Source: Ceraceosorus guamensis
Lineage: Eukaryota; Basidiomycota; Exobasidiomycetes; Ceraceosorales; Ceraceosoraceae
Direction: 5' to 3'
DNA: 50,262 nucleotides
NCBI RefSeq assembly: GCF_003144195.1
Contig: NW_020290100.1
Coordinates: 1 to 50,262 of the forward strand
The translations under genes were made by a program, and so were the position numbers. The notes below the pieces were generated by a model. That model had not been told where the DNA came from. It was given only the letters and a program-made list of their open reading frames with translations, and did not search any database. Each line of letters starts with the position of its first letter. The first letter of the stretch is position 1. Of the stretch, positions 27,464 through 35,052 are shown one piece after another.

Positions 27464-30400
27464 TCAGAAAGCTGGACCATTGGTGCCTCCTGCAGGCAGA
27501 CAATGTTCCGAATCCGCAGCAGGATTGCCCCACCTAAAACCGTGCGATGACGCATCGTCAGAGAAGGGCGCAAAGAAAGGGGGAGGGGGAAATAAAACAG
27601 TGCGAGTGCGTCGAGGGGGCGGGGAAAAAGTCGACAAGATGATCAGCAGGTTTCTTGTTGCGCTTGCTATTCTTCCCTCCCAACACTCACCACCTAGGCA
27701 TCGGCACCACCTTGAGAATGGTGACGGACATGAAGAAGAGCACGAGGGCATTGATGGATGCTGCAAGTGGAATGAGGGGTGCGAAAAAGGTCAGGCGCGC
27801 GCACTGTGCAAGTCACTTTCATCATGCAAGATCGAAATTCGGCTCGATGAACACGACGCTCACTGCCAGCATCCAGAGCAGCGCTAAGGACGTAATTGCG
27901 CTTCGCAAAGAATTTAGGATGATGTTTGCGCATCCAATACTGCGAAAAGATGGCCGCTATAAAGCCGCTCGAAATGATCTGTGCAGAAGGGGTGGGGGGG
28001 GAAAAAGAAGAAAAGGGCGTAAACTTTTATTGAAAGAGACTTTTTTCTTTGTTTCTTTTCTGCTTCATCCAGGCGTGATTTCGGCTCGCTCACATTGGTG
28101 GGCACCTGAGGCGGCAGACCCGCGCCATGAAGCAGCACGGGAAAGTTGATCTGCTGCCACCATTTCCTTGGGAAGCGCTTGTTGAGCAGCCAAGGAAGGA
28201 CGGGCAAGAGGAAACCTATGAGAAAGCCAAAGTAGAGCTTGATGTAGTTGCCCACGAAGAAGCGAGCTGGTGCAATGGCGCCCCAGATGATGGATGCGCT
28301 GTAGAAGATGTGCACTTTTCTACCATCCCATTGACCTGTCGGATCCACTTTTTCTCCAGTGAGAAAGACCCGATAGCCTGCATCTGGACTGAGGATCAAG
28401 CGCACGACGGCCTGAATCAAGGGCAATAGTATGGGGGTACATCTCAACACTTGTGAGATGCGTCGCTGTTTGGAAACGTACTCACTAGATTGACGCAGCA
28501 ACCAATGACAGTTCCAATCGTCTGCGCGACAAACATGTGTCTAGGGGGAATCTCTGCCATTCACACGACGAGCGGGGATGAGCTTGATGCTGTGCACCCT
28601 TTCTAGAGCGGCCGCTCGTACTCACTCATGTAATGCGCCTGCCGCGAGCGCCGATGAACCTTGTCAGCTAAGTTGGCTTCCGCGAGTCAAACGTGAGACA
28701 CGACCACTCACAAGCTTGAGGTCCGTTGTCAAGTCCAGAGCCTGCGACATGGCCATGTATCCATAGCATTTGAAAGCGACATTTCCCACTGGTCTTCCGG
28801 GCCAAAGCAATCCAGCGACGAATTCGGTGACGACGTTGAGACCAATGACGGTGTCCGACACTGCTTTGATCAGACCCACAGGCACCAAAAAGATCAGCGC
28901 GATAGAGACGGCTAATAGCAGACCCGTGACCTGCCGACGTGGGTTCTCGTCAGCATGGCCTATGTCAGCGCGCGCGGGCATATCTGCCTGGGAACCGACT
29001 GACAGTGATCTGAAGGGGCGAGGTCGCTACGAGCAGAATGGCAGTCGACAAACTGATTGCCAAGGTAGCAACGTACCAGCTAGGGCGAAGAAGCACTCGA
29101 GGTGATCAGTAACTTGACCATGGTCCGCCGCGACGATGCTCCTTCCGCACCTCTTGGGGACTGGTTGGTACGCCTTCATCAGGCGATTGTGGATATCTTC
29201 CCCCGGCGGAGCAAAGATGGCTTTCATAATGTCCTTTCGATGCCAGAGCACCACATGCGTGATCATGGAGGTGAGCGTCGCAAAGGAGATACCGTACGAG
29301 CTGTTGCACGCGAAGTAGCAGGTGAGCAGACGGCCCACTGTCTAGCCCTGAGAAGCGTGCACTCACAGGGCAAACTGATCAGACAGGGCAAGATGGACAA
29401 CGAAGCCTTAGCCAGTGATCATCACCTGCACGACTCTCTCTCTCTCTCTCTCGCACCCCCCAAACTCACCCATGGCGTGAGCAGCAAAGGCGAGTTTTGT
29501 TTCCACTTTGTAGGGTCGAGCATATTCTTGCTATCCAGCACGCTCGACACGTTGAACTTTTTGTAGTCCCCTCCATACAATCCCGCCCCGAGCGGCGCGT
29601 CGAATTTTTGCGCGTCCCAAAAGCCATGTTCGCCGACGAAAAAGTACAAGCATGGCATGACTACGAACATGGCTCCCATGATGCCGGCATAGTAATTGAG
29701 CGCAGCCCAGAGCGGCGTGTAGAGAGGTCCGGCAGCACCAATGGCGGTCCAATCGAGGGAGAAGTTGAGCAGTCCGAACCCTTTCATGCCAGAGCCCAGG
29801 ATACGCATCGAGCGCGACTCGTTGTTGAACAGACAGAGCAGCGACACCGAAGTGAGGGTAGGCATGATGAGGGCTGGAATAAATTGATAGATAAAGACTA
29901 GAAGGTGCACGTGAAAGGCCTTTCGAGTGTCAGCTAAAGTTCGTTGGAGTCAGCAAGCCATGCTGAACTCACTAGCAACGAATGCAAAGGCAAAGAACCG
30001 AAGACGGGGCTTGGTGTCCGCACTGTGCGCGCCATGTAGCGTGTTGAACATCGTTGTGGTCACCAGAGTCCCTGGAAACACCATAGCGACGGGCTTGACC
30101 AGGATGGAATGCACCAGACCGGCAAAGCCAAAGCCTAAGGTTTGGGTCGTCAACAGCAGAGCCAGACTGGCCGGGATGCTCATCTCGGTGTGATAGAATA
30201 GATCCTGAATGTTGAGAATATCTGCTGCGTAGGCCGACGAGGCACCTGAACTCGACACCACAGTGACCAGCAGATGCTCCTTGATGGAAAAGTCACCAGG
30301 ATTGAGAGCGACGTAGCCTATGAGCGGGATCCAAATGTCCCTTTTTGGCGTCACTCGTGCGAGCCAGCGTCCTAGGGGCAAGGACACCAAGATGACCATG

Positions 30401-31237
30401 TAGGAGCTGAAGCTGGGCGAATTGGACTTGTAGAAAAATGTCTGTGGTGGTATAAGGGGCGAGTGAGTGATTGTTCAAGCGACTTGGGCAGCTCCAAAGC
30501 CGATGGCCACTGTATACAAGCCCCTTCGCTACGGGCCTCCCACTCTGTGTGCAGCGCGCCAGTCTACACGCTTGCGCTACGAGAGGGCAAGGAACGCTGA
30601 AAAGCCAGGCAATGCGCGATTGGCGAGGCAGTGTGCTACCTGCACAGCGCCATGGATGCCCTCGAGTCTCTGCATGTCAAAACATATCCAAGCCACACCG
30701 ACTCACCTGAGCCACTGCAGCTCCAGCAGTCGCAAAGATGCTGCCCATGATCACACCTCGCAGCGTGAGCGCGGTCATGGTGGGGTCGTCTGTTTCGGGT
30801 ACGGCCCTCCTGACCAGACTGATAGGATCGTCCGAATCTCGCGACGCCATACTCTCCCTCTCCCTCTCCCTTCCCCTCGCTCTAGCTCTCTGCCTAGCAG
30901 CTCGCGTTTGCGGATCCCTCAATAGGGCTTCCTCATCGCCCGCATCCGCATCCGAATCCAGATCATCATCATCCTCCGACTCGGACTCCTTTTGGTATGC
31001 CTCCTTGTCCAAATCACTGCCGCCTAGTGTCCCATCTTCAAACGCCTTGTCCCTCGCGCTTCGCATCGGCGTCAGCTCTACGTCCGAGTACGATGCGCTC
31101 CCACCTTGTCGACCTCCTCCTCCTCCTCCTCCGCTCCTCTGCGCGCCAACGCCGCTGCTGCTGCTGCGGGACATGGTTTCCATGGAAGGGTCTCGCCTAC
31201 GCAAGGGAGAGTACGGCACCGCGCTGGATGGAGGCAT
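27464..31237 (-). CDS. OPT-family oligopeptide transporter, 13 exons
   Basis: This encodes a proton-coupled membrane transporter of small peptides or related molecules. Thirteen exons (5' to 3' on the minus strand): 31237-30707, 30441-29973, 29933-29470, 29374-29367, 29300-29151, 29079-29004, 28930-28712, 28638-28626, 28553-28486, 28411-28094, 27978-27864, 27760-27691, 27533-27464. They sum to 2571 nt (856 aa) with phases that agree at every junction. All introns are GT-AG, 39-265 nt. The first 140 or so residues are cytosolic, Ser-rich and acidic. OPT signatures follow: ETDDPTM, NPGDFSIKEH (NPG at 224-226), SSAYAADIL, FIPALIMPTLTSVS, SYGISFATLT, DIHNRLMKAYQPVP, PGRPVGNVAFKCYGY, DLKLAHYMKIPPR (KIPPR at 644-648), YSASIIWGAIAP, SAALDAGT and PRWWGNP. 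The start is the first ATG of the frame. The substrate cannot be told from sequence; peptides, glutathione and metal chelates are all known in the family. Confidence 0.95.
28626..28638 (-). other. 13-nt microexon (exon 8) of the OPT gene
   Basis: On the minus strand the sequence reads GCGGCAG|GCGCATTACATGA|GTGAGTAC. It encodes AHYM plus the first base of the Lys codon of the conserved KIPPR motif; the next exon begins AG|ATTCCCCCTAGA. The joined protein reads LKLAHYMKIPPRHM, as in the family. Flanking introns are 73 and 72 nt. Confidence 0.88.
29367..29374 (-). other. 8-nt microexon (exon 4) of the OPT gene
   Basis: On the minus strand the sequence reads CTGATCAG|TTTGCCCT|GTGAGTGC. Inclusion restores PW-FAL-SYGISFA (residues 489-491), the expected OPT pattern before a transmembrane helix, and keeps frame (phase 0 in, phase 2 out). 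Flanking introns are 95 and 66 nt, with branch-like TGGCTAAG and TGCTCAC. Skipping it would shift the frame, and reading through the introns meets stops. Confidence 0.85.
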
Positions 31238-32357: not shown

Positions 32358-35052
32358 TCAACAAGCAGGTACAGATACGGGTATACGAACAGCAGTGGCC
32401 AATCCGCCCAAAGAAGTTTCCTTGAATTCGCTCCTCATCCCCTGCGCCGTGGATCTCATAGCAGCCAAAGCTTCGTCCAAGCTGACCGCATGTCCACTCT
32501 CGCTAGTCTCTGATAACGCCAGCTGAGCGCTCACCACTGCCTTGGCAGCGCCCAAAGCGTTGCGCTCGATGCACGGTACTTGAACCAGACCTAGCGGCGG
32601 ATCACACGACAAGCCGATAGAATGTTCCTGTCGACAAAGGATTCATGACGATCAGCCCATCTATTACGCTTCGCGAGCCCAGGTTGTGCTGGGGAGTTGG
32701 GGCTTGTAGCTGCTGCTCCCTCGACCATCACTCACAATACCAATCTCTGCCGCTTGCTCGATGGTCGCTGGACTGCCACCCATACAAGCAGCAAAAGCAG
32801 CAGCAGCCATAGCGGTGCTAGATCCCACCTCTGCCATGCATCCACCCTCCGCAGCGCTTATGGTAGCGCCACGTTTGAACAACATTCCGATAGCTCCTGC
32901 AGTGAGCAGAAAGGTGAGCACGTCCCTCTCCTCATCTTCAGAGTAGAATTCCAGCGTATACTTGAGCACGGCGGGTATGACGCCTGCTGCTCCCATGGTG
33001 GGCGCCACAACCACCCGACCGCCAGATGCGTTGACCTCGTTGACTGCAATCGCATAACAGCTCAGGAAATCCGTTCCCGGCAGCGAGAGACGTCGAGGCG
33101 GTGTTGGCAAGAGAGGATGATCCATCCTACCGACCACACGAGGTGGACCGGAAGAGCGTGCGCGGCGCCGCAGATTGCCGCTGCCGCTGCCTACGACGGA
33201 GCGTTCTGAGAGAGCTGGAAGATTGCTTGGCCGAGCAGCGTCTGATTCTCCTCCGCCTTCGACTGATGCTCTCTCGTCCGAAGGGGACACACCTTTTAGC
33301 TTCGACGCCCCCACAGCACCGTTCGACCCCGCAAAAAAGCCCCGCGTCAATCGAGCGTACAATGCGGGCGCTCGCCTGCGCAGCCTTAAGGCTCCGGGAA
33401 GAGTCTCTTCGCTGGAATGCACGCCTTCGTAGATGCAAGTGTCCATCGTGTCCCAAATGTGCCTAGAGGTGCAGGAGAGTGCGGGGTTGTCGATTGGGTC
33501 GGTATCGATCTAGTCAGTCTATCAAAGCGCTCATTTCAACACCCGCAGCCTGGCCGCATTCCGATTGAGCGAAAGAGACTCACAAGAGCTTCTCTCGGAG
33601 CTGATCCGGTGAGTATCCAAGAGACACTTCATTCTCCCATACGATCTGCGCAATCGTCATGTTGTGTTTTCGTGTCAGGGCGAGCAGGCTAGCAGCGTCC
33701 CAGAATACGTAGGGCACCGTCGGCGTGCCATTCGCCTCGCCCACAGCATCTTTTGGAGGTTCGCTGACGCTGCAATCCTCCTCTTTCACTCGAGCTACGG
33801 ACTGGGACGAAGTCGGTAGCTTCAGCGACGATTCTTCCGAGTCTGAGGACCCCTCGCGATGAGCTTCTGCGCCGAGCCTTCGTGCCGCTTCTGCTTTTCG
33901 TCTGTCGATGCCCTTGTAGAACAGATTTTCTGCAAGATCGACAGGGTGCGATGCGGGCGCAGCTGACGGGACAGGCGAGAGAGTTTGCTGATCTGCACTT
34001 TGCAGAGCAGCATTCCCCGATGATGCTTCGTGGGATGTTGTCACATTTGCGCTCTTGGAAGAAGGAGCGACGCTCATCGCTCCATTGATGACGAAGCCCC
34101 CTCCTACAGAAGCGAAATCATTCGTGGCGAGCATATCTCCAGCTTCATCAAACACTGTCAATCTGAGTCCATTGGAATGCATGGGCAAAACTTCGCCCCA
34201 CATCCACTTGAGATCGGTCTTGTAGTCGAAAGCGATGGTCTGACCAGCAGCATCAGAGCGCGCTTCATCCGTCATCTTCGCTGCTGCTCGCTGCTTTGAG
34301 CTGGCCAGATGCTGTCCGATGCACAATTGCTTGTGATCCAGAATCTCTTGATACCTTTTGGGTGCCCAGGCAGTGTCCACAGTCTCTGCGTCGACACCTT
34401 CGATGCCGAGCAGCAAAGCTCTGGGCGTATAATGCCCTTCGCCAGTCGCTGCCAAACTTCCATACAGGTGTATTTGAAGCCTGTGAACGCGCTCGAGCAG
34501 CCCGGCACTTTGCAGCTCGGTGGCAAAGATGGCTCCTGCTCGCATAGGTCCTAGCGTGTGGGAGGAGGATGGCCCGATACCGATGGAAAATAGATCAAAG
34601 ACGGAAATGACTGCATGCTCCGTCGGCGTGCCTGCCGTCATTTTGAACTGACTAGCACCCGGTACCGAACTTGAGGATGCGGATGCGGATGCGGCACTCG
34701 TATCGCTGCCTACCTCCGCAGCTATGGCGCTTTCGCCTTGCCCATCCATCCCAACCCCTCGCTCCTTTTTCAGCCGTTCTGCGCGCTCTCTATCTTGCCG
34801 AAAATGAGCGTCGGAGTATGAATGCGTGTCTTTAGCATCGAGCGAGACGCTGCTGCTCGTGTGCAACTCTCGACGTCGACGACCGTGCTCCTCATGGTCG
34901 TTCGCGCGAATGCGCGGCTTTGGTGCGAAGCGTGTCGAGATGTGAAGTTGCTGCGATGGTCTGGGTGACGGTTGCGCAAAGACGAAGAGCCTTCTCCTTA
35001 GATCACGCGGCATGCTGACGTTGATGCCGCCCAGTGTGAGCGCAGGTCTCAT
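32358..35052 (-). CDS. Iron-sulphur L-serine dehydratase (SdaA type)
   Basis: This enzyme deaminates L-serine to pyruvate and ammonia using a [4Fe-4S] cluster, not PLP. Exons are 35052-33584, 33462-32736 and 32627-32358 (821 aa); introns are 121 and 108 nt, GT-AG, phases 2 and 0. The beta domain carries [18 protein letters not shown] (GPSSSHT at 160-166). The alpha domain carries [70 protein letters not shown] and PCIERN. Cys698, Cys740 and Cys751 have the 42- and 11-residue spacing of the cluster ligands known from bacterial enzymes. The last residue is Cys821, like the C-terminal Cys that plugs the bacterial active site. Bacterial enzymes have about 455 residues. Extra length here comes from an N-terminal extension and low-complexity inserts at about 365-450 and 535-615. 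The Arg-rich, acid-poor N-terminus suggests mitochondrial targeting. The start is the only ATG upstream of the beta domain with that presequence. Confidence 0.95.

Follow-up and report, generated by a model that had tools for sequence, protein, structure and literature searches.

Predicted 8- and 13-nt microexons in an oligopeptide transporter gene of Ceraceosorus guamensis

Known fungal microexons and the transporter gene

An 8-nt microexon, gg/cac/gag, is known from the CYP5141A1 gene of Phanerochaete chrysosporium, where it falls within the I-helix motif AGHETT, and an exon of a single nucleotide has been described in CYP621A of Fusarium (both in the accessible text of PMC12940212). Microexons are reported to be numerous in the P450 genes of P. 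chrysosporium, in which the smallest exon measures 6 bp. With nearly one-third of these genes concerned, according to the accessible text of PMC1184071, the statement in the original prediction that microexons of this size are rare in fungal genes is overstated. Among the literature matches listed, whose coverage leaves out most subscription journals, no report of a microexon in a fungal OPT gene was found. Tiny exons are easily missed by gene finders.

The window is a stretch of 50,262 nt of Ceraceosorus guamensis (contig NW_020290100.1, positions 1 to 50,262). Its minus strand carries an oligopeptide transporter (OPT) gene at 31237..27687, stop codon included. The model, built from the minus-strand sequence, has 12 exons, an open spliced frame of 822 aa and no need of a base change anywhere. 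The protein matches the Pfam OPT profile (PF03169) with 493 bits over profile positions 2-622 of 623, where the curated cut-off is 25.8 bits. On this match the gene is, as had been proposed, an OPT-family oligopeptide transporter gene with a predicted transport function.

All 11 introns are GT-AG, with sizes of 66-265 nt (66-115 nt in 10 of them), and nine donors start with GTGAG. Intron 10 (27979..28093) contains no CTNA-type branch motif 10-70 nt before its acceptor. The pyrimidine tract of this intron is the richest in the gene (19/22). Elsewhere on the minus strand of the window is a long ORF (32664..33509), the residues of which we take to resemble L-serine dehydratase. It is considered highly probable that the transporter gene is an ordinary member of its family, and that successive introns among its 11 GT-AG ones twice enclose a tiny exon, of 8 nt and of 13 nt, both probably constitutive.

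The 8-nt exon and the competing joins

Exon 4 (29367..29374) is the 8-nt microexon TTTGCCCT, predicted to code for FA and two bases of L. It lies between exon 3 (29470..29897; 428 nt, last residues ...LLLTPW) and exon 5 (29151..29300; 150 nt, first codons C-TCG-TAC, SYGISFA). The minus strand around it reads ...CACGCCATGG|GTGAGTTTGG...CTGTCTGATCAG|TTTGCCCT|GTGAGTGCACG...GCGTGCAACAG|CTCGTACGGTATC, and a second extract gives GTCTGATCAG as the end of intron 3 and GTGCAACAG as the end of intron 4. The original prediction had placed the exon at 29374..29367 between CAG and GTGAGT, and TTTGCCCT is read there exactly. From the letters alone, CAG|TTTGCCCT|GTGAGT is an internal exon with a 3′ splice site before it and a 5′ splice site after it. 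Intron 3 (29375..29469; 95 nt, GTGAGT...TGATCAG) has a branch-like CTAAG at -34, the only CTNA-type candidate found, from which the final pyrimidine is missing. Intron 4 (29301..29366; 66 nt, GTGAGT...CAACAG) has a branch-like CTCAC at -23. Within intron 3, ahead of the microexon, 19 bases (29434..29452) form a (GA)n run.

Joining exon 3 (PW) directly to exon 5 loses the frame, as had been noted, and gives 632 aa in place of 822 aa. With the microexon, TGG + TTTGCCCT + C-TCG reads W-F-A-L-S. The frame argument holds for the boundaries that had been named, but an enumeration between exons 3 and 5 also found 14 single-intron joins that stay open. The frame alone is therefore not decisive; it is the family match and the quality of the splice sites that decide for the microexon.

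The same enumeration gave seven microexon candidates that restore the frame, of which one contains a stop. A donor score was trained on the nine donors of the gene that do not follow a microexon, which range from 5.27 to 11.43. The donor of TTTGCCCT scores 10.71 and is the only strong one among the seven candidates, the next best reaching 1.33. Regional Pfam scores were obtained for eight variants, namely FAL, four of the six other microexon candidates, two of the 14 single-intron joins (those with the best donors) and an artificial join lacking any insert; the two remaining microexon candidates, one being that with a stop, were left out. FAL has the highest score of the eight (95.6 bits), followed by ASF (93.6 bits), AS (88.2), CT (88.1), ASLSIF (86.9), the join with no insert (84.4) and the two single-intron joins (75.0 and 73.1). 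These differences in bits argue strongly that the insert is short, at about three residues, and against the stretches of 14 or 15 residues left by the single-intron joins. Between FAL and ASF the profile favours FAL only weakly, by 2.0 bits. It is the donor score, 10.71 against 1.33, that separates the two predicted exons, ASF also having an AAG acceptor. The claim that the 8 nt restore the residues of the family as well as the frame is thus borne out by the top score of W-FAL-S.

One alternative without a microexon is a single intron from the donor at 29469 to the acceptor GGGCTAG|ACAGTGG, with the exon starting from 29341 and the protein reading PW-TVGRLLTCYFACNS-SYG. Its frame is open, it shares the strong donor of intron 3 (8.39) and its acceptor is a TAG, but it scores 22.5 bits lower regionally and 20.1 bits lower over the full protein (472.9 against 493.0 bits). 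It would also add a net 11 residues where both paralogues align without gaps, and is considered very unlikely. A single intron from the downstream donor CAG|GTGATG (29425) to the usual acceptor, adding VSLGGARERERESCS, is less probable still. That join is open and has a donor of moderate score (4.83), but it falls 20.6 bits lower and its extra stretch runs through the (GA)n.

An assembly or sequencing error that broke the frame, with no microexon present, is the least probable reading, close to negligible. The draft state of the assembly, in 199 contigs, would fit such a reading, but the join lacking the three residues is 11.2 bits below FAL, GTGAGT directly follows TTTGCCCT and the gene model is obtained with no base changed.

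The expectation by chance was estimated by shuffling the 169-nt interval between exons 3 and 5, with dinucleotide composition preserved, in 20,000 replicates. Candidates were counted if they were of at most 40 nt, restored the frame, followed [CT]AG and preceded a GT donor with a score of at least 8.0. Any such candidate appeared in 1455 of the 20,000 shuffles and one of exactly 8 nt in 163. An 8-nt candidate whose peptide is at least as close as FAL to the LFM of the C125 paralogue (BLOSUM62) appeared in 36 of 20,000, which is a low bar as FAL itself scores 0.

The 8-nt microexon is very probably real as a feature of the gene model. It predicts the spliced junction TGG|TTTGCCCT|CTCGTACGG; a transcript reading TGG|ACAGTGGGCC, or one in which the GA run is kept, would run counter to it.

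The 13-nt exon, the paralogues and other genes

A second microexon, absent from the original prediction, is exon 8 (28638..28626, minus strand). Its 13 nt, GCGCATTACATGA, are predicted to code for AHYM and the first base of K, and link exon 7 (28712..28930; 219 nt, last residues ...TTDLKL) to exon 9 (28486..28553; 68 nt, starting AG-ATT-CCC, (K)IPPRHMF) as AHYM-K. It is flanked by intron 7 (28639..28711; 73 nt, GTGAGT...GCGGCAG) and intron 8 (28554..28625; 72 nt, GTGAGT...ATGGCAG), and its donor scores 8.62. The regional Pfam score is 135.3 bits, 13.4 above the best alternative (the three alternatives, which comprise two other candidates and an artificial join lacking exon 8, have 121.9, 113.9 and 108.6 bits in order of score). 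The shuffle counts corresponding to those for the 8-nt exon are 266, 33 and 0 of 20,000. The predicted spliced junction is CTT|GCGCATTACATGA|AGATTCCC.

Two paralogues from the same genome, on contigs C125 and C37, were compared with the window gene; the OPT-like loci on C71 and C6 were left out. The C125 paralogue is 31% identical to the window protein, in a compared row where five X replace a stretch elsewhere, and is uninterrupted and gap-free against it at both microexon places. It aligns there as LPVSLFMAYWSGFAT against LTPWFALSYGISFAT and as DLKVGHYMKINPR (C125) against DLKLAHYMKIPPR, with LFM opposite FAL and GHYMK where the 13-nt exon codes for AHYM. The C37 paralogue (29% identical) is likewise uninterrupted and gap-free at the FAL site, so that neither paralogue has an intron at the site of the 8-nt exon. 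The C125 paralogue lies in one frame with a single internal TAA (L001, around 2181), which is probably contained in a short intron.

The C37 paralogue has a candidate microexon of its own, the 6-nt CATTGG (L003, 2637..2642) in GNG-I-GTNTLSKM, at a site that is intron-free in the window gene. It requires an upstream GC-AG intron with the donor GG|GCGAGT, and is followed by an exon of 38 nt (L003, 2702..2739). Skipping it keeps the frame, and its inclusion adds 5.2 bits to the Pfam score (131.6 against 126.4). This candidate is likely to be genuine, although the case is weaker than for the microexons of the window gene. The positions of the microexons differ between the paralogues, which suggests a separate origin in each.

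Wider searches returned no homologues from other species within their scope. The window protein found none in a PDB sequence search up to E 1. None of 13 pattern matches in viral contigs was confirmed as a homologue, nor was any of 21 matches to two short peptide patterns in bacterial and archaeal genomes.

A screen for small exons covered 58 junctions, each lying between two consecutive profile matches, in 25 complete or fragmentary genes for aldehyde dehydrogenase, CCT/Hsp60, actin and Hsp70; sugar transporters and P450s were left out. Junctions passed if the profile gap was below 2 or the genomic gap below 95 nt, as was the case for 46. The 12 with room were read by eye in the DNA, and none contained an exon below 30 nt. 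In a control on the OPT hits, the screen flags the stretches of the 13-nt exon and of the C37 6-nt candidate and misses the junction of the 8-nt exon. The 46 passed junctions are therefore no argument against 8-nt exons, and no rate is drawn from them. Outside the 58 stand single-match genes, two-match pairs on C25, C10, C20 and C1, and one C43 row. The C25 pair would pass the rule, the C10, C20 and C1 pairs have large gaps and the junction in the C43 row is an ordinary single intron.

Splicing, origin and comparison with known systems

Short introns with GTGAG donors fit intron definition, and the introns of the window gene would be recognised singly in this way. The two introns beside a microexon are probably removed in sequence. 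This would be the simplest path, because an exon of 8 nt cannot easily hold the factors of both its splice sites at once. Once one intron is out, the microexon would be fused to an exon of normal size.

The predicted protein would measure 632 aa after skipping of exon 4, 649 aa after skipping of exon 8 and 624 aa if both are skipped; with any one of the four flanking introns retained, it would measure 479-642 aa. As either event truncates the protein, the full-length transporter needs accurate inclusion of both microexons. Exon 4 falls close to where a moderately hydrophobic stretch begins, in which the 19-residue Kyte-Doolittle mean rises to 1.36.

These shortened products make a splicing switch possible, in which the microexon is accepted but is alternatively skipped or included to turn the transporter off or on; no observation points to one. 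A glucose-dependent microexon has been reported in Xlr2 of Trichoderma (accessible text of PMC11121469), but the strong standard donors at both microexons of the window gene suggest constitutive use, and such regulation is considered unlikely. Very little credence is given to the broader idea that OPT microexons, of 8, 13 and possibly 6 nt and located at three different places in two paralogues, arose repeatedly in the lineage, with peptide uptake placed under nutrient-responsive control when the 8- and 13-nt exons are skipped and the frame is lost.

The likely origin of the two microexons would be separate gains of introns, 8 and 13 bases apart, within conserved coding sequence. An origin by repeated copies of an intron was rejected: in a search with intron 3-exon 4-intron 4 and intron 7-exon 8-intron 8 (E up to 1, very common words skipped), both stretches match only themselves across the genome.

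The finding matters chiefly to annotation and to tests of splicing. Two microexons in one conserved gene offer a clean benchmark for gene-finding and spliced-alignment programs. At the 8-nt exon an open but wrong join is available, by which 14 or 15 spurious residues would enter the protein. Both exons together may also serve as a natural substrate for the question of how an intron-definition spliceosome handles an exon of 8 nt.

Of the systems described, CYP5141A1 resembles the window gene in being fungal and in carrying 8 nt within a conserved protein motif; it differs in belonging to the P450 and not the OPT family (accessible text of PMC12940212). The P450 genes of P. chrysosporium likewise form a multigene family of a fungus, with tiny exons amid short introns, but there the microexons span many genes (PMC1184071, as far as its accessible text goes), whereas here they concern two OPT genes, one of them as a candidate only. 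The same logic was applied to CYP621A, where a junction within a conserved motif was out of phase and an intronless relative guided its reading. For the exon of CYP621A, support from 20 orthologues and from sequence reads is given in the accessible text of PMC12940212, whereas that of the window gene is deduced from the genomic sequence. Xlr2 of Trichoderma virens is also a fungal case, but one in which inclusion is regulated, according to the accessible text of PMC11121469. Since exons this small have already been reported (PMC12940212, PMC1184071, in their accessible text), the understanding of fungal splicing is unchanged. The 8-nt exon of the transporter gene joins a known class, a fungal microexon of the same length being already in print in the accessible text of PMC12940212.
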